From: Clostridiales bacterium
Lineage (GTDB): Bacteria > Bacillota > Clostridia > Lachnospirales > Lachnospiraceae
Direction of reading: 5' to 3'
NCBI GenBank assembly: GCA_021204025.1
Contig: JAJQAC010000087.1
Location: 62,001 to 126,000 of the forward strand
Length of the DNA stretch: 64,000 nt
Positions 32,118-40,125 of this stretch are shown one piece after another (the first letter of the stretch is position 1; every line of letters begins with the position of its first letter). A program made the position numbers and the translations under genes. The notes beneath the pieces were generated by a model, which worked only from the letters and a program-made list of their open reading frames with translations, was not told the DNA's origin and did not search any database.

Positions 32118-34112
32118 CTAAAGTTCCAGCAGCATCTCTTTAATCTGAATCATCCGGTCACGCAGCTCAGCCGCCGCCTCAAAATTCAGCTCAGCCGCTG
32201 CCTGACGCATCTTCTTTTCCAGCTTCTTTGCCAACGCCAGAAGTTCCTTCGCATCCATGGATTCCAGATCCTTTTCATTTGCATTGGCCGGGCTTTCCGC
32301 CGCCTTTGATATGGCGATCAGATCCCTCACTGCTTTTTTGATGCTTGTCGGCGTGATTCCATGTTCCTGATTATATTTTTGCTGAATCGCGCGGCGGCGG
32401 TTGGTCTCCTCGATCGCCCGCCGCATCGAATCGGTGATCGTATCCGCATACATGATCACATGCCCGTCCACATTACGGGCGGCGCGGCCTACTGTCTGGA
32501 TCAGGGAGGTTTCCGATCGCAGGAAACCTTCCTTATCCGCATCCAGAATCGCCACCAGAGAGATCTCCGGAATATCCAGACCCTCACGGAGAAGGTTAAT
32601 GCCGACTAACACATCAAAAACATCCATCCGCATATCGCGGATGATCTCCGCCCGTTCCAGAGTATCAATGTCAGAGTGCAGGTATTTGACACGGATATCC
32701 ACATCCCGCATATAATCGGTCAGATCCTCCGCCATACGCTTCGTCAGCGTCGTGATCAGAACCTTATTATGTTTTGCTGTTTCTTTGCGAATCTCTCCGA
32801 TCAGATCATCGATCTGCCCCTCTACCGGACGCACCGAGATCTCCAGATCCAGCAGACCGGTCGGACGGATAATCTGTTCCACGCGGGCCATCTCATGTTC
32901 TGCTTCATACACATTCGGCGTTGCAGAAACAAACATCATCTGATCAATCTTACTCTCAAACTCTGCAAAATTTAACGGCCGGTTATCCAGTGCCGACGGC
33001 AGACGAAAACCATAATCTACCAGTGTCTGCTTTCTTGAGCGATCCCCAAAATACATCCCCCGCACCTGGGGGAGTGTAATATGAGACTCATCCACAATCA
33101 TCAGCAGATCATCCGGAAAATAGTCGATCAGCGTCCATGGCGGCGCTCCCGGTTTCCCAAAGGCCAGATGACGGGAATAGTTTTCAATGCCGGAGCAAAA
33201 CCCGGTTTCGCGCATCATTTCCACATCGTAATTGGTCCTCTCCGAGATCCGCTGCGCTTCAAGAAGTTTATCATTACTCTTAAAATACTCTACCCGCTCC
33301 TTGAGCTCCTCCAGAATATTCTCTGTAGCAAGCTGCATCTTTTCTTTCGGCACCACATAATGAGACGCCGGGAAGATTGCCACATGACCAAGCTGATACC
33401 GCACTTCCCCGGTGAGAGAATCAATCTCACTGATCCGGTCAATCTCGTCGCCGAAGAACTCAATCCGATACGCCTCACTCCCGGAGTAGGCCGGATAAAC
33501 TTCCAGCACATCGCCATGGACACGAAACGTACCGCGGTGAAAATCCATATCATTGCGATTATACTGAATTTCGATCAGCTTACGCACGATATCATCACGA
33601 TCCCGTTCCATACCCGGACGCAGAGAAATAACCATCTCCTTATAATCAATGGGCGAGCCAAGTCCATAAATGCAGGATACGGATGCCACAATGATCACAT
33701 CCCGGCGTTCTGACAGTGCCGCAGTCGCTGAATGACGCAGCTTATCAATCTCATCATTGATTGCAGAATCTTTCTCAATGTAGGTGTCCGTTGAAGGGAC
33801 ATAAGCTTCTGGCTGGTAGTAGTCATAGTAGGACACAAAATATTCGACCGCGTTCTCAGGGAAAAATTCCTTGAACTCGCCGTACAACTGCGCGGCAAGG
33901 GTTTTATTGTGCGCAATTACCAAAGTCGGCCGGTTGAGCTGCTCGATGACATTGGCCATCGTGAAGGTCTTACCGGAACCCGTAACCCCCAGTAAAGTCT
34001 GGAATTGATTGCCTTCTTTGAAGCCTTTGACCAGCTCGGCGATGGCCTGTGGCTGGTCGCCGGTGGGCTGGTACTCGCTGTGTAGGATGAAAGGTTTTTG
34101 TTCACTTTGCAC
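32118..34112 (-). CDS. uvrB: Excinuclease ABC subunit B
   Basis: A 664-residue DNA helicase-like subunit that verifies damage and hands it to UvrC in nucleotide excision repair. Walker A is GVTGSGKT (near 45). The damage-probing beta hairpin is [12 protein letters not shown]. Helicase motifs [19 protein letters not shown] and QTVGRAARN follow, and a C-terminal UVR helical hairpin ([14 protein letters not shown]). The start is the GTG at 34112, because GGAGGTGAT lies eight bases upstream; the ATG at 34211 would add 33 residues foreign to UvrB. uvrA is not adjacent. The accessory island begins right upstream of this gene. Confidence 0.96.
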
Positions 34113-34303
34113 AAAAATCACCTCCGAAAATCTTATCGTAAAAACCTGCGTTATGGTTGAAAATTGTTGCGAAGCGGAGAATTTCTCTGTCTTACAGGCG
34201 AACTTTTTCACTCATTACGAATGAAGGTCACCTGAATCATGTTTTTCATACACAAAAAATTAAAATCCCGCTATGTAAGCCTTTGATCAGTTCATGGCTC
34301 AAG

Positions 34304-37291
34304 TCAAACCATCCTCTGTCCCCAATACTTATCGTTTCCAAACGTCATTTCTAAAAGCTCCGTAGCTATCCCTCTGTCCGACACACGCATCAGATTATCC
34401 TCCACATCCTCTTTTCCAAGGAAATTCAAACTTCCATACCACACAAGCTCCCTGTCAATGATGCAGTAATGCGTACAGTAATCTTCTACGAGATTCATTT
34501 CAAATCCTGCATTTCGCATCCGCTCCTGTAACTCCATCCAGTACGCGCTGTCACCAAAGCCATACATATCCGGTTTCCAAGTAACAATAATAACCTTCAG
34601 GCCATTTAACTGCTTTTCCTGTAAAAGATCAATAAATTCATCTACCTTTTTCCCGCTTATCACAGGACTGGAGAGGATAATTTCCGCCCGAGCCACAAGC
34701 AAATCCTTTTGATACCTGTCATAGTAAGTTTCTGCGTCATAGATAGAACCCGGCAACTTATCTTCTTCTGTATTTTCCACGCAGGCAGCCTCTGAATACA
34801 TATCGTAACCGATCTGTTTATACGCTTTCAAACGCTTATAATACATTTTTTCAAACATGTCAATATGACTGTCTACATAATCATATATGATAACATCTTT
34901 CTTGCCCTCATAATCCCTGTTCAGCCGACCGGCATATTGCTCCACGACATTCTTCCCTGATACAGGCGTCGCCATTATCAACGTGTCTAAGCGCGGATAG
35001 TCAAAGCCCTCACCGACTAATTTTCCGGTTCCAATCAGGATCATGCTTTCATCACGCTGAACTTCACTCATCTGAGCAATCATCTCTCTATGTTCTTTTT
35101 TGGAATTTTCACCGGAAAGCAAAAATATCTTATCCGCATATCCTTGTAGTCGGTCAAATAATTTTCTGGAATGGTCAACATATCTTGACAAAATGACCGG
35201 CGTTCTGCCTTCATTCACACATTGTCTGACATCGCGAATGATCATTTCATCACGATCTTCATTATTTCTCAGGATTTCATATGCTTCATTCGGATGCATC
35301 TTTTCACTTCCGAATCGCGGTGCGACCGCTCTGGTGAAACGCGGAATTACCAGATGCGCTATTCCCTGCTCTTTCGCACGATCTTTTGCAGTGAATTTAT
35401 ACCGAACCGGACCAAGAAGCATATAATTAATCTTTTCCAGACCATCACCACGGGCGGGAGTTGCGGTCACTCCATAAACATATTTTGCGCATACCTCCTG
35501 CAAAACATCCACAATCGTATCCGAAGCGGCATGATGGCATTCATCCAGAATTACCAGCCCGTATTGCTTCAGCCTGTCGTGATATTTTCCCTTTTTACAT
35601 AAGGAACCCACCATGGCAATATCCACAATCCCCGTTGTGGTATCCTGCGCACCCTGCAGTCTTCCAATCACACTTTTCCGAACCTTAACTCTTCCGGTCA
35701 GCGTCCGGTATTCCGGCGGTTTCTCATGAATGTCCAGAAAAGTTCCTAATGCATTTTCCCATTGCTCCATCAGAGCCGAAGATTGCAGCAGGATCAGGGT
35801 ATTTACCCCTTTTCTTGCAATCATGTTACAAGCTAACACAGTCTTTCCAAATGCCGTGGCGGCATGTAATATACCCATATCATGCTTTTCTAACGTCTGA
35901 ACGGCCTTCGTCTGGGATTCTTTCAGTTCCCCACGAAACTGAACTGCTATCTGTCGTCCCTCACATCGTTTATCTTCAATTTCAAAGGAAATACCCGCAT
36001 TTTTACAGCGATCTGTGAGCCCATCCAGTAATCCTCTTGGAATCCGGATATATCCATCAACGTCCCTTCCCAGATAAATATAACGCGAATTTTTGAAATT
36101 GGATAGACCAATTGCCTGATTCTTATAAAATACCGGATTGCTGAAAGCTGCCAGCTCCCGAATCTGATTTCGGATCCTCGCAGTAAGATTTGATCCATCC
36201 ACATATAAAGCGTCAGCTATCGTGATCCGCAGAACACCGGTCACATCCTCAGCATGAAATCCCTTTGATTTATTCCATGGATGTTCCTCCGTCTTTTCCG
36301 ATATTTCATCTAATGTAACTGCAGGCAAAGAGCCACAAATACTCCATTCCTTTATCTTCTGCTCGATAAACTCCCTGCTGAGCTTGTCCTTAGATAACAA
36401 AACAGACCATTGATCCGGATAAGCGTTCCAATATTCGTCTACAAATGCGCTGTTCCCATTCTTAAGTGCCTGTCCCTGCAAAGGCAGTGCAATCAGATTT
36501 CCAAAGCCGCCTTTTGGCATATGATCCTGCATGGGAAGCATCCGGTCATAATAACGGAACGATTTTAAATCGACTGACTCTGCGCCCTTCTTCAGAAGCG
36601 CATTTCCAAATTTCCTGGCAAGGACAGCATCAATCTTTCCTTGGAAAAAGATCCACAAATGGGCGCCTCTTCCGGATCTTGACCTTTCCACCAATGCATC
36701 AATTCCATTGATACTGCAAATCTTTCGAAGTGCATTTACTTCCTCTTTTCATACATCATCTGTATTGGCATAATCACGCTTATTTGCTCCTTCTTCATGA
36801 TTATCAAAATCAAACACGATAAATCGACAGGTATCATCAGGGAGGAGCGGATATACTCCGATCACATCTTCCGCCTCTTTCGACAGACCCTTCAGATGTG
36901 CTACGATCTGCCCCGCTCTCAGAGGGATATATGCCGGTGATGTACATGCACTGCATTGTTTACGTTTATCTGTCCTTTTGGGGCACCCTGCTCTCCAGAA
37001 ATTATAACACTGAGGATAATAATTTGCCGTCCCCTTCGACTTCACAAAAGTACGCCTGCTGTATACGTCCGTTCTTCCCCAGAACATCTTAAAGAACTGA
37101 TTGGCATCCTCTTCCGAAAAATCAGTTTTCGGAATGATGCGGCTACTCTGATCCGGAGCATATGCACTGGTTTTGTCAACAATCGTTTCGGATTCAAAAC
37201 TGATACCAGCTTTTACAAGCAGCCCTTTCAGATAGTCATTTTCTTTTTTCAATCTATCAATTTCGGATTTCAGGTTTTCTATTTCAATCAT
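34304..37291 (-). pseudogene. TOTE-type archaeo-eukaryotic primase/helicase, interrupted by one TGA
   Basis: One reading frame of 995 codons runs unbroken except for a TGA at 36749-36751 (codon 181). Order: coiled coil (1-30); Cys cluster (CYNFWRAGCPKRTDKRKQC); primase domain with FDFD catalytic acids (near 165), SRSGRGAH (near 204) and YYDRMLPMQD; helicase with AFGKT (near 480), DECHH (near 583), TATPARGDG and QYAGRLNRDYEG; and a C-terminal PLD-like region (IIDRELVWYGSLNFLG) whose HKD is incomplete. These parts are those of the TOTE conflict-system primase-helicases, inferred anti-element systems. The TGA falls where the family usually has Trp after NTDD, so TGG became TGA. A downstream TTG (36694) could start only a headless helicase. 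Confidence 0.85.
36749..36751 (-). other. In-frame TGA at a Trp position
   Basis: The frame reads NTDDV, TGA, KEEVNALRKI and continues to the end of the helicase. Both sides align with one family protein without loss of residues, so this is a point change and not an indel. Normal stop use of TGA elsewhere (uxaC, mrpC, yjjI) rules out a Trp-TGA code. Confidence 0.85.
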
Positions 37292-37383: not shown

Positions 37384-38780
37384 TCAAACCTGCTTTGAAT
37401 AAAGGGCACCCGACAAATGATATATCTTATTTTTGGTTCCACCGCTCGCTGCAAGTTGTCCCTCTGCCACCAGTTCTTTCAAAATAACCCTTGTCCTGGC
37501 TTCGCTTAATCCCAACATTTCCGCAATTTCGCTTGTTTTGGATTTTTTATTTTCGCAGATAAACTCAATGATCTTTTCTTTGTTTTTCAAAGTTTTTTTC
37601 GCTTGTTTTATTTCGCTTGTTTTTTTCGCTCGTTTTTTTCGCTCGTTTTTTTCACTCGTTTTTCCAAAAACGACAGTTTCAATATCGTCCGATCCGGTGC
37701 ATACTGTTCTTCCACTTCCGGTTCTTTCCATCCTTGCTGCTCCCATACACTGTAAATATCTGGGACACCGCTTCCTGCACGCTCACCAATTCCAATCAGG
37801 TTCAGCATTTTCATCAGCGCTTTGTTTCTTGGATCAGAAATACCACCCTTCAACATCTGCTTTTTCCCTGTGCGAATGCTGCCCGGATTCTCCATGATAA
37901 TAGACTCTGCATCTTTACGGATCACCACACCGCGTGGCAGATAAAAGTCCGTATTTACAATACAATTCGCCAGTGCTTCCCTGATCGCTTTGTGTACCGG
38001 CGTATCGTCTACTCGTACTATACCATCCAGCTGAAAAGGAACTTTCAAATCCTTCACCAGTTTGCTGTTTACCCGGAAGAAAAAATCAAAAAGATTACCT
38101 GTCCAGTCTCCGGAGCTTGATTGAATACGGTCTGTCCACCGAATCGTCGGATCAAGCACTTCCCGATAATCCAGAAAATATTCCGGGAATTCATAAAGTA
38201 TTTTATATTCTTCGCCAAACATCAGCAGGCCAGCCGCCGTCGGATGCAGTTTGCCATCCTCTTCTGACAATTTTGCCGCTCCTATCCGTTCCAGATACTC
38301 ATCATCACTTAATTTCTCCCAGACATGCTCCCGTCGATATGCCATATGGCGGTTGCGATACGCACGAACTGTTTCAACATCGAGATCAGAAAGCTCCCTT
38401 TCCTTCAGGACCTTCATGTCCATCGTTTCTTCCGGTTCATCTCGAAGCATAGCCAGCACTTCTCTGCGTTCACAATGATAATCTCCTTCCCAGTTCCGAC
38501 GAAACGTACCGTTAAACATATCATTGTTGATATAGACAGGCTTCTGTTCTCGTTTAGCCGCAGGAACATGGATCACTATGATTAATTTCTCATTTTCATC
38601 TTCATAGGTTTCCAAATCTTTATCCGACAGAAGACAAGCAGAAACTTTATTATGATTATTGATTGTATCCCAAAATTCTTTCCGGATTCTCGCCTCATTT
38701 TCCAACCCTGTCGCGCACCAGCTGCCATCCTCATTTTCAATCAAAAGTGCCTTTGGACGAATTTTGGTCACTAAAACCAT
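37384..38780 (-). pseudogene. Schlafen/AlbA-type ATP-binding protein, frameshifted in a 13-bp repeat
   Basis: From 38780 the frame encodes the last part of an AlbA_2 (schlafen-like) domain (KVSACLLSDKDL, VYINNDMFNGTFRRN). An HATPase_c_4-type region follows (HKAIREALANCIVNTDF, PGSIRTGKKQMLKGGISDPRN, IGERAGSGVPDIYSVW). It stops at 37608 inside the tandem repeat at 37600-37663. The C-terminal winged helix (KIIEFICENKKSKTSEIAEML to SKQV) is encoded in the -1 frame and ends at 37384. One extra 13-bp unit, or a -1 shift, would join them. The usual N-terminal start of the AlbA domain (EFK and FANxxGG) is missing; only hairpin-rich DNA lies upstream. It may be a regulator or a defence component. Confidence 0.78.
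37600..37663 (-). repeat. 13-bp tandem repeat inside the AlbA-type gene
   Basis: On the minus strand the unit is seven A plus CGAGCG (variants CGAGTG and CAAGCG). Units start at 37600, 37614, 37627, 37640 and 37653, giving periods of 14, 13, 13 and 13. Because 13 is not a multiple of three, each gain or loss of a unit changes the frame of the downstream winged-helix domain. Confidence 0.9.
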
Positions 38781-38850
38781 TTTCCCTGACTGTGCGGAAA
38801 AGGGGAAATGATACGGAAAATGTAACGCGCGATTGGTTGTCAACAGGGAT

Positions 38851-38944
38851 ATTATAGGAACCGCTTCGCGAACCCTATAATCGGATTGACGGCGCAAAAG
38901 CATGCGCCTTTTATCGGCAGTTGCTGACGCAACTTCCGATAAGC
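38851..38944. repeat. Cluster of hairpins upstream of the AlbA-type gene
   Basis: Three inverted repeats follow each other: ATTATAGG/CCTATAAT (38851-38881), GGCGCA/TGCGCC followed by TTTT (38894-38915), and ATCGGcAGTTGC/GCAACTtCCGAT with a 4-nt loop (about 38917-38944). They replace the expected 5' end of the AlbA-type gene and suggest an inserted or decayed element. Confidence 0.6.
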
Positions 38945-39039
38945 CATATTATAACAGTTTCCCCTGCGATTGTCCACGGGGGCGATTCCTGGCTCTGTTT
39001 GCTTTATACTTTAAAAAGAATCCTGCTTTGTAGGATTCT

Positions 39040-39107
39040 CCGCCTGCGGCGGTTGCTGTGTGCCAGTGGCACACGTTTAGCAACGACCGAAGCGGAGCGC
39101 AGACCGC
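39040..39107. repeat. GTGCCAGTGGCAC palindromic repeat, copy at 39 kb
   Basis: GTTGCT and AGCAAC flank GTGTGCCA-g-TGGCACAC, a nested hairpin, followed by GACCGAAGCGGAGCG. The same ordered blocks occur at 58.87-58.98 kb, there split by about 50 inserted bases. No gene is seen between 38945 and 39223. Confidence 0.75.
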
Positions 39108-39152
39108 TTTAGCGACATATTTCAACTCCGCCGCAGTGCGATCCGTCGGAGA

Positions 39153-39193
39153 CTTTTTATATCACAGGACGTACTTTCCTGTGATATAAAAAG
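39153..39193. terminator. Perfect 17-bp inverted repeat, bidirectional terminator-like
   Basis: Left arm CTTTTTATATCACAGGA (39153-39169) and right arm TCCTGTGATATAAAAAG (39177-39193) pair without a mismatch around CGTACTT. Its right end runs into the toxin terminator at 39187. Confidence 0.7.
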
Positions 39194-39211
39194 GCAGCCG
39201 AACTGACTGCC
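39187..39211 (-). terminator. Terminator of the UPF0175/DUF3368 module
   Basis: On the minus strand GGCAG and CTGCC (39207-39211 and 39193-39197) close a short hairpin followed by TTTTT. A near copy (18 identical leading bases) lies at 40288-40312, on the other side of the module. Confidence 0.8.
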
Positions 39212-39223
39212 ATTAAGCTAACT

Positions 39224-39714
39224 CTATCTCTTATCCTCTCCTGCTGATTCTAACACGAATTTCTCTACTCCATCACTAATATAAAATCCATTCCTTTTCA
39301 TTTCAGATAAAAGAGGTCTTAGTTCCTGAATAAAGCCCTCTTTCCTTGCTTTCAATAAAACTCCGAGTGTTCCCGTGACTGTCAAGCCTAAATACTTTGC
39401 TGTTTTTTAGCTGCATTATCATCAATAATTAGCAGGTCTGCCTTTTGCTCCTGAGCAAGAATCATCACTTCAACCTCTCCGTCATGTAACTTTGCCCGGT
39501 ACATTTTCCTCTCGCTTAAATCCTTAATTGGATCCACATGAACCCAATCTCTCGATTTTTTTATCTGAATACAAGCGGAATCCGTTTTAGCCGTTACCTC
39601 TTTATATACAGCCAGAGGAATGTGAATTTCACCATATAACTTCCGCAGAGGTTCCAATTGTCCAATTCCGCAAAGAACAATCAATGGTGTTGAATTCACA
39701 ATTACCCTACGCAT
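39224..39714 (-). pseudogene. DUF3368 PIN-like toxin, frameshifted at an A6 run
   Basis: From 39714 the protein runs VIVNSTPLIVLCGIGQLEPL, GEVEVMILAQEQKADLLIID, DNAAKK, then stops at 39409 in the zero frame. The -1 frame continues without a gap as AKYLGLTVTGTLGVLLKARK to FVLESAGEDKR and ends at 39224, giving a full DUF3368 protein of about 163 residues. The break is at GCT followed by six A (39403-39408 region); a seventh A would restore ACA GCA AAG. DUF3368 proteins have a PIN-type nuclease fold (early Asp/Ser-Thr motif here NSTPL, so the first acidic residue is replaced by Asn) and pair with UPF0175 antitoxins. It overlaps the antitoxin gene by eight bases. Confidence 0.82.
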
Positions 39715-39961
39715 TGTTCATTTCCTCCATAAATTCTTCTCTATTATCAAATTGAAAAATCGATATATGGTTTTGCCCAAGATAGCGAATAAATTCCTCT
39801 TCTGACATTCCCGCTATCTGAGCACAATATCCAATCGATACGCCGCTCTGTGTATAATATCCAAAAGCAACTGCCTTTTTCACGAAACGATTCGCTTCTT
39901 CTATATTCATCTTGGTATCATAAAGAACCTCATCCGGTATATTCACTGCTATCTGACACAT
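39707..39961 (-). CDS. UPF0175 family antitoxin
   Basis: An 84-residue protein whose pattern fits UPF0175: an N-terminal strand (IAVNIPDEVLYD), a helix (EEANRFVKKAVAFGYYTQSG) and the SIGYCAQIAGMSEEEFIRYL segment. UPF0175 proteins are DNA-binding-like partners of DUF3368 toxins. The start at 39961 follows GAAAGGAGTGG. It is intact, while the toxin gene that overlaps its end is frameshifted, as often seen in decaying toxin-antitoxin loci. It probably represses its own promoter. Confidence 0.85.
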   Translation of the reverse strand: MCQIAVNIPDEVLYDTKMNIEEANRFVKKAVAFGYYTQSGVSIGYCAQIAGMSEEEFIRYLGQNHISIFQFDNREEFMEEMNNA

Positions 39962-40125
39962 ATGATCCACTCCTTTCAAAGTCTGCTCCACTGTATCTAT
40001 AAATCGTTGATACCTTTCAAAATAGCATTTTTAAAAATCCCTACTATTTCTATTATCTTACCACAGCACCAACGCAACCCGCAAGACAACTTTTGATCGA
40101 CGACGACAATGTAATTATATCATTC

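Follow-up and report, generated by a model that had tools for sequence, protein, structure and literature searches.

At BREX loci, the fusion of a Schlafen-family RNase with a minimal histidine kinase and a winged helix-turn-helix (wHTH) domain has been described (PMC12839542). The intact relatives of the gene considered here have the same domain order as that protein, namely SLFN_AlbA_2, HATPase and winged helix; however, the accessible portion of that paper mentions no repeat linker, no non-triplet units and no exchange of winged helices. The literature that we searched held, among the matches listed, no report of repeats or phase variation in this Schlafen family.

Another point of comparison is type IC HsdS, which has TAEL/LEAT tetrapeptide repeats (PMC10030836, PMC6789123). 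As in the Schlafen genes, a short tandem repeat serves there as an inter-domain spacer in a defense protein. According to the excerpts of these two papers, the number of units alters function, and gonococcal HsdS combines the repeat with a downstream frameshift. However, the HsdS repeat encodes four residues per unit and stays in frame (by arithmetic, 12 bp), whereas the Schlafen array has 13/14-bp units that are out of frame from one unit to the next and uses like DNA cores in all phases. The Schlafen array also resembles the simple-sequence contingency loci, e.g., mod genes with tetranucleotide repeats (excerpts of PMC3711429 and PMC6789123), in that a non-triplet coding repeat sets the frame by its number of units. 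Compared with the mod-type loci, the Schlafen arrays have few (mostly 3-7), long, A-rich units, and the out-of-frame state is rare in open Schlafen genes and associated with decay.

The window, i.e., the whole 64,000-nucleotide stretch of Lachnospiraceae DNA that was analyzed (contig JAJQAC010000087.1), probably holds on its reverse strand a decayed, 5'-truncated copy of a defense-type gene with the order Schlafen AlbA_2, HATPase and winged helix, the repeat of which has drifted out of frame. The copy has the feature of a contingency locus, a non-triplet coding tandem repeat that sets the frame. Its units are 13 or 14 bp long, and so it has no in-frame tetrapeptide repeat of the HsdS type. It differs from the BREX-locus protein (PMC12839542) in the loss of its first ~52 residues.

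The truncated copy in the window

The 13-bp tandem repeat reported in the initial annotation was recovered by TRF at 37592-37663 (reverse strand), with a period of 13, 5.5 copies, 93% matches and a score of 114, the highest among the 25 TRF rows in the window. A two-unit probe, with up to three mismatches, matched the window only in this array, at two overlapping positions, and had no match in 100 shuffles. Each unit consists of an A-run and a CGAGCG or CAAGCG core, and the units are 13, 13, 13 and 14 bp long. By these results and by its position, the array is a coding minisatellite that forms the linker between the ATPase body and the winged helix.

The body is an ORF of 431 residues (37608-38903, reverse strand), a truncated Schlafen-type body with HATPase_c_4 (PF13749, E 4.5e-9, 36.6 bits against a cut-off of 26), and it stops at a TAA within the array. 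A second ORF (37746-37384, reverse strand) reads through the array without a stop in the other frame and continues into the winged helix (37384-37587), where PF13412 (HTH_24) and PF04703 (FaeA) both match above their cut-offs. Thus, the winged helix is present and unjoined, offset by -1 from the frame of the body, and the frame is lost at the repeat between the two, as had been claimed. The arithmetic by which a gain of 13 bp or a loss of 26 bp would fuse the frames is also right, and it is supported that the non-triplet repeat decides whether body and winged helix are joined.

The body has 376 codons beyond its junction with repeat-derived sequence, and neither these nor the winged-helix frame contains a further stop; decay of the downstream frame, which had been named as one of two signs that would speak against a switch, is not visible. 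If the gene is dead, its death would be recent; alternatively, the ORF may still be in use, and its translation could begin at a start codon in the sequence that derives from the repeat.

Among the four relatives compared, the nearest body is that of L048 (81% identical over 339 codons), and the winged helix shares 48-59% identity with its counterparts in L044, L121, L048 and L136. L048 and L136 have the same type of array, both in frame, and the window copy has one 13-bp step fewer than they do. This difference comes from manual reading of the sequences, with three 13-bp steps before the 14-bp unit in the window and four in L048 and L136; the automatic unit chain gives the same spacings for the window and L048, since the first core of both relatives is left out of that chain.

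The assignment to the AlbA/schlafen genes made in the initial annotation was sound as to the gene type, given HATPase_c_4 here and SLFN_AlbA_2 in L004 and L121, but it overlooked that the AlbA_2 start is missing. SLFN_AlbA_2 (PF04326) had no match in the window ORF at E 0.1. When residues 1-75 of L004 were compared with the window by tblastn, the single significant match began at residue 53, at position 38738 (E 2e-5), and the remaining matches had E values of about 1 or worse. The first ~52 residues have been replaced by sequence of a dispersed repeat, from which the residues of the ORF before 38738 derive. Judged by its sequence, the window ORF is a remnant of a member of the Schlafen AlbA_2-HATPase-winged-helix family.

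The pieces of the dispersed intergenic repeat that abut the truncated gene lie at 38726-38857 and 38946-39017 (reverse strand, together 38726-39017), as recognized by blastn to the same-genus relatives L011, L021 and L029. The segment 38700-39240 has 59 matching places in its own genome, the query itself counted. Matches to 38691-39240 fall mostly on query positions ~44-236 and ~288-392, and some of the places are adjacent to each other. In the three same-genus relatives, the dispersed repeat directly adjoins uvrB and there is no Schlafen-TOTE pair (blastn); in the window, the pair sits between the repeat and uvrB, which is the gene that follows downstream (32118-34211, reverse strand, identified with Pfam), so that L011, L021 and L029 have the arrangement of an empty site.

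The TOTE-type gene (34304-37291, reverse strand) is made up of two ORFs in one frame (37291-36749 and 36694-34304) and has AEP-TOTE, ResIII, DEAD and Helicase_C domains, with PLDc_2 below its cut-off. It is broken by one in-frame stop within the primase domain. L107 has a TOTE gene without such a break, immediately upstream of its Schlafen gene. On the other side of the window copy, 39224-39991 (reverse strand) holds a UPF0175 gene (PF03683) followed by a small gene that is split in two frames and that is whole in a 97% identical stretch of L011; we take this small gene to be PIN/DUF3368-like.

The 13/14-bp array across the family

Loci were gathered from the genus, from 397 family genomes (52 with a match), from GTDB contigs (the best 80 of 456 relatives) and from the genus of G366. 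Six close loci among the 30 of the genus were taken (L001, L004, L005, L006, L010 and L020), together with 30 of the 59 listed places in the family genomes, all 80 from the GTDB contigs and 20 new ones from the genus of G366; with L055 (the window again) and L060 left out, the total was 134. Without the five loci that have no joint motif (L005, L057, L154, L157 and L159), 129 remain, and without two that have N in the linker, 127.

An array of three or more units is present in 106 of these 127 loci, duplicates included, and 423 of the 431 spacings are 13 or 14 bp (246 of 13, 177 of 14, seven of 12 and one of 15) in a count that allowed only 12-15 bp and included duplicates. Another anchor, applied to 89 nonredundant arrays, gave 174 spacings of 13 bp, 143 of 14, 20 of 12, 12 of 15 and five others. 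The eleven later loci with a joint (from L185-L197, of which L192 and L197 lack the motif) gave 22 spacings of 13 bp, 14 of 14 and four of 12; at least four of these loci (L185, L186, L195 and L196) repeat L062, L070, L131 and L138, as judged by their tails, and so the later sample is not independent. Most arrays alternate between 13 and 14 bp (27 bp), and some run 13, 13, 13 (39 bp), including the nearest relatives of the window array. Units of 12 bp occur only in a few relatives, e.g., L053 and L193, and some genes have no array (L040, L042, L101, L125 and their like).

A search of the 397 family genomes for AAGCGA at 13/14-bp spacing, which covered this one core type, found the pattern in 13 genomes at 13 separate places; the window array, which has CGAGCG cores, does not belong to them. 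Eleven are in Schlafen genes (10 known and the fragment L167), and two are elsewhere (L169 and L172). The reversed pattern, which served as a control, matched in 6 of the 397 genomes (G000, G058, G115, G213, G284 and G383), partly because GCGAA arrays contain the reversed pattern too. One of the L169/L172 arrays lies in a lysine-rich ORF end, and the other has no open frame of more than 30 codons across the array on that strand.

In most of the intact relatives compared, a lysine-rich linker that the minisatellite encodes connects the body with the winged helix. With an A-run and a GC-richer core every 13 or 14 bp, the reading frame changes from one unit to the next, and the gene stays open only if the units add up suitably, as 13+14 or 13x3 do. 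Identity at the out-of-frame lags of 13 and 14 is above that of synonymous-codon shuffles (z of 18.8 and 12.6, population means), as is identity at the in-frame lag of 27 (z of 13.5), over 99 loci, duplicates included, out of an earlier set of 106; single loci go beyond z 3 in 10 of 99 cases at lag 13 and in 1 of 99 at lag 14. Cross-phase core concordance within a gene is 0.717 against 0.482 expected, with phases permuted between genes and a maximum of 0.537 in 500 permutations, and in 65 of 87 loci the cross-phase cores of one gene are more alike than cores of equal phase taken from other genes. We read this likeness as concerted evolution of the units across frames, and we predict that the process behind it is turnover by slippage, unequal exchange or conversion. 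L149 has CAAACG in all five units and reads KQTIKTNDK where its relatives read KQAIKTSDK.

Exchangeable tails and the probable defense setting

At the array, the conserved body meets an exchangeable cassette of array plus winged helix, and the boundary is sharp. Among 629 locus pairs with bodies at least 80% identical (94 loci), the winged helices are less than 45% identical in 363 pairs and at least 70% identical in 125. For 29 such pairs, drawn from 17 loci and at least 90% identical in body DNA, identity drops at a median of +5 nt from the linker start (quartiles 5 and 15, range +2 to +17), a position that coincides with the first unit or slightly precedes it (median anchor +13). In the closest pairs, near-identical bodies (up to 99.7% over 340 residues) carry winged helices that are 15-42% identical. 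The type of core tracks the winged-helix type and not the body (standardized coefficients of 0.121 and -0.025, respectively; 3321 pairs, 82 arrays); therefore, array and tail travel together. The specificity domains of type IC HsdS are also interchangeable, a likeness to the Schlafen tails.

The loci L042, L085, L093, L097 and L100, with bodies 98.8-99.7% identical in the pairs listed, have four different C-terminal modules, two of which lack a 13/14-bp array. The array was considered as a recombination handle for cassette exchange; however, the joint is equally sharp without an array (L040, L042 and L100), and the array is therefore not required for exchange. Silent donor cassettes are likewise not a general mechanism of tail switching. 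Partial copies of the body end occur in the flanks, which are of unequal length, of only 4 of the 129 loci (L069, L076, L104 and L117), and the copy at L104 is out of frame, too.

The intact relatives L004 and L121 have SLFN_AlbA_2 (PF04326) and HATPase_c_4, and L121 also has HTH_24 and FaeA. Further intact genes come from commensals, among them L061, L087 (Blautia wexlerae) and L098 (Faecalibacillus intestinalis). In view of the literature, the intact proteins are presumably RNase-type phage-defense effectors, in which the winged helix may sense or target. Nearest neighbor ORFs were listed for 16 loci, and 20 of the 32, from 13 loci, were scanned. The neighbors include PglZ and an Eco57I-type methylase (L092), HamA and a UvrD-type helicase (L062), AbiH (L109) and TOTE (L107); housekeeping genes (EF-Tu, uvrB, ATP synthase and a sigma factor) are present as well, and three of the scanned ORFs had no match. 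At some of the loci, but not at every one, a defense setting is thus supported.

With PADLOC, all matches were partial. Its Aga_SIR2 model matches the body, at residues 153-388 of the window ORF (E 3e-9) and 143-377 of L121 (E 2e-7), which suggests that part of the Schlafen body may be common to argonaute-associated proteins. Weak matches fall on the linker and winged helix (residues ~408-494) of L061, L087 and L121, to SoFic (E 0.13), PDC-S72 (E 0.0022 and 0.059) and a type I specificity model (E 0.0044), and similar tails may occur on other defense proteins. Sequence searches against solved structures returned only 2kyy, a RecG-related protein that matches the N-terminal part. Plasmid and phage relatives are below 60% identity, one of them being the Salmonella record L141 (H23). 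The exact window probe was absent from viral contigs, where no relative was confirmed, and the gene of L002 had no DNA match in E. coli.

Frame state, rival explanations and meaning

The frame table comprises 108 nonredundant loci, with 21 duplicates set aside; the winged helix is in frame in 101 and out of frame in seven. With two loci at contig edges left out, it is out of frame in 2 of 94 loci with open bodies (L116 and L117) and in 5 of 12 with broken bodies (L001, which is the window, L006, L020, L124 and L155; Fisher p = 1.5e-4). A body was called broken if its ORF had fewer than 395 residues before the linker; L001 and L020 were set to broken by hand, because foreign sequence opens their frame. 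The choice of the best 80 of 456 relatives slightly disfavors out-of-frame loci. The loci L162-L184 and L185-L197 stand outside this comparison. Of the later out-of-frame loci, L167 also has a 5'-truncated body, and L189 has 395 open residues, exactly at the threshold, and lacks about the first 12 residues; by the threshold rule, it would count as a third open out-of-frame case. At L020 (G017:C13), a methylase-like N-terminal part, presumably HsdM-like, runs in frame into the middle of a Schlafen body, which is followed by a seven-unit, out-of-frame array. Both frame states are not common in otherwise intact genes, given 2 of 94, and frame loss of the winged helix tracks gene decay in this family.

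The initial annotation had proposed a contingency switch, in which slippage would change the number of units and a working protein would alternately gain and lose its winged-helix tail. Part of this has held, in that the repeat sets the joining and the number of units differs between similar genes. The units are non-triplet across the family, and L116 and L117, perhaps also L189, are otherwise open yet out of frame at the array, as an OFF state would be. Similar bodies also carry different arrays: L004 has five units in frame and L020 seven units out of frame, with bodies 98.8% identical over the last 500 nt, and the bodies of L109/L124 and L130/L158 are 96.4% and 99.4% identical over 500 nt. 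However, L020, L124 and L158 have broken bodies as well, and among the 94 loci with open bodies no more than those 2 have lost the frame. We consider such a switch unlikely, and for the window copy the proposal is not supported: this copy is probably not a working switch, because its 5' end is lost and the neighboring TOTE gene is broken, and frame loss goes with broken genes. An error of sequencing or assembly in the A-rich repeat would also produce a lost frame, in a repeat and homopolymer context, in a genome of 91 contigs and next to a small gene that is frameshifted relative to its counterpart; but, compared with L048 and L136, what is missing is one entire 13-bp unit, and neither the 5' truncation nor the TOTE stop is a homopolymer error, which makes this explanation quite improbable.

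It is very improbable that programmed -1 ribosomal frameshifting joins the frames and keeps the gene functionally intact. The heptamers of the A AAA AAC type, said to lie in phase in the units, are found in two single units and not in every one: A AAA AAC at 37638-37632, in phase with the body frame, and A AAA AAA at 37626-37620, also in phase in the upstream frame (both reverse strand). The first of these and the -1 position of the winged helix at 7 of 8 out-of-frame loci (six called automatically, and L020 added by reading) would suit frameshifting. Nevertheless, the difference in heptamers between out-of-frame loci (6 of 8) and in-frame loci (56 of 101) is not significant (p = 0.46), L116 and L155 have none at all, and with 101 of 108 nonredundant loci in frame there is no conserved need for it. 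That the array is instead a DNA or RNA binding site, e.g., for its own winged helix, would explain both the likeness at the DNA level and the covariation of core with winged-helix type, but joint exchange of array and winged helix already explains the covariation. Copies of the unit in the flanks, which might have been autoregulatory, numbered 24 against 15 in a single, crude 3-mer block shuffle (19 loci), and some of them come from partial gene copies; this is not convincing, and we regard a binding site as extremely improbable.

Truncation and decay thus remain our preferred explanation for the window copy. The 5' end would have been lost first, the number of units would then have been free to drift, and the winged helix would have fallen out of frame; this order, truncation before unit loss, is the one that we infer. 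In the intact genes, we predict that selection holds the frame. Natural changes in unit number do shift the tail into and out of the frame, and selection seems to keep working genes in frame. A bolder reading, which we hold to be rather doubtful, is that the joint is a device for evolvability, in which turnover of the 13/14-bp units, read in alternating frames, would be so fast that they remain similar in all phases and would pass through out-of-frame intermediates, the tail would be stochastically detached and re-attached, and whole cassettes would be swapped at the joint, re-targeting an abortive phage-defense effector.

As regards the window, the outcome is largely a deflationary one, in that the gene is truncated. 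For the family, it is a non-triplet coding minisatellite at the joint between modules. It is unusual that the DNA unit, and not the peptide, is kept alike across the frames of a coding repeat, and that a single change of the unit affects different amino acids in several positions together, as in L149. This points to turnover in frame-breaking steps, and tail-less forms should then arise in nature. The joint also makes it testable whether Schlafens change what they sense by swapping tails.
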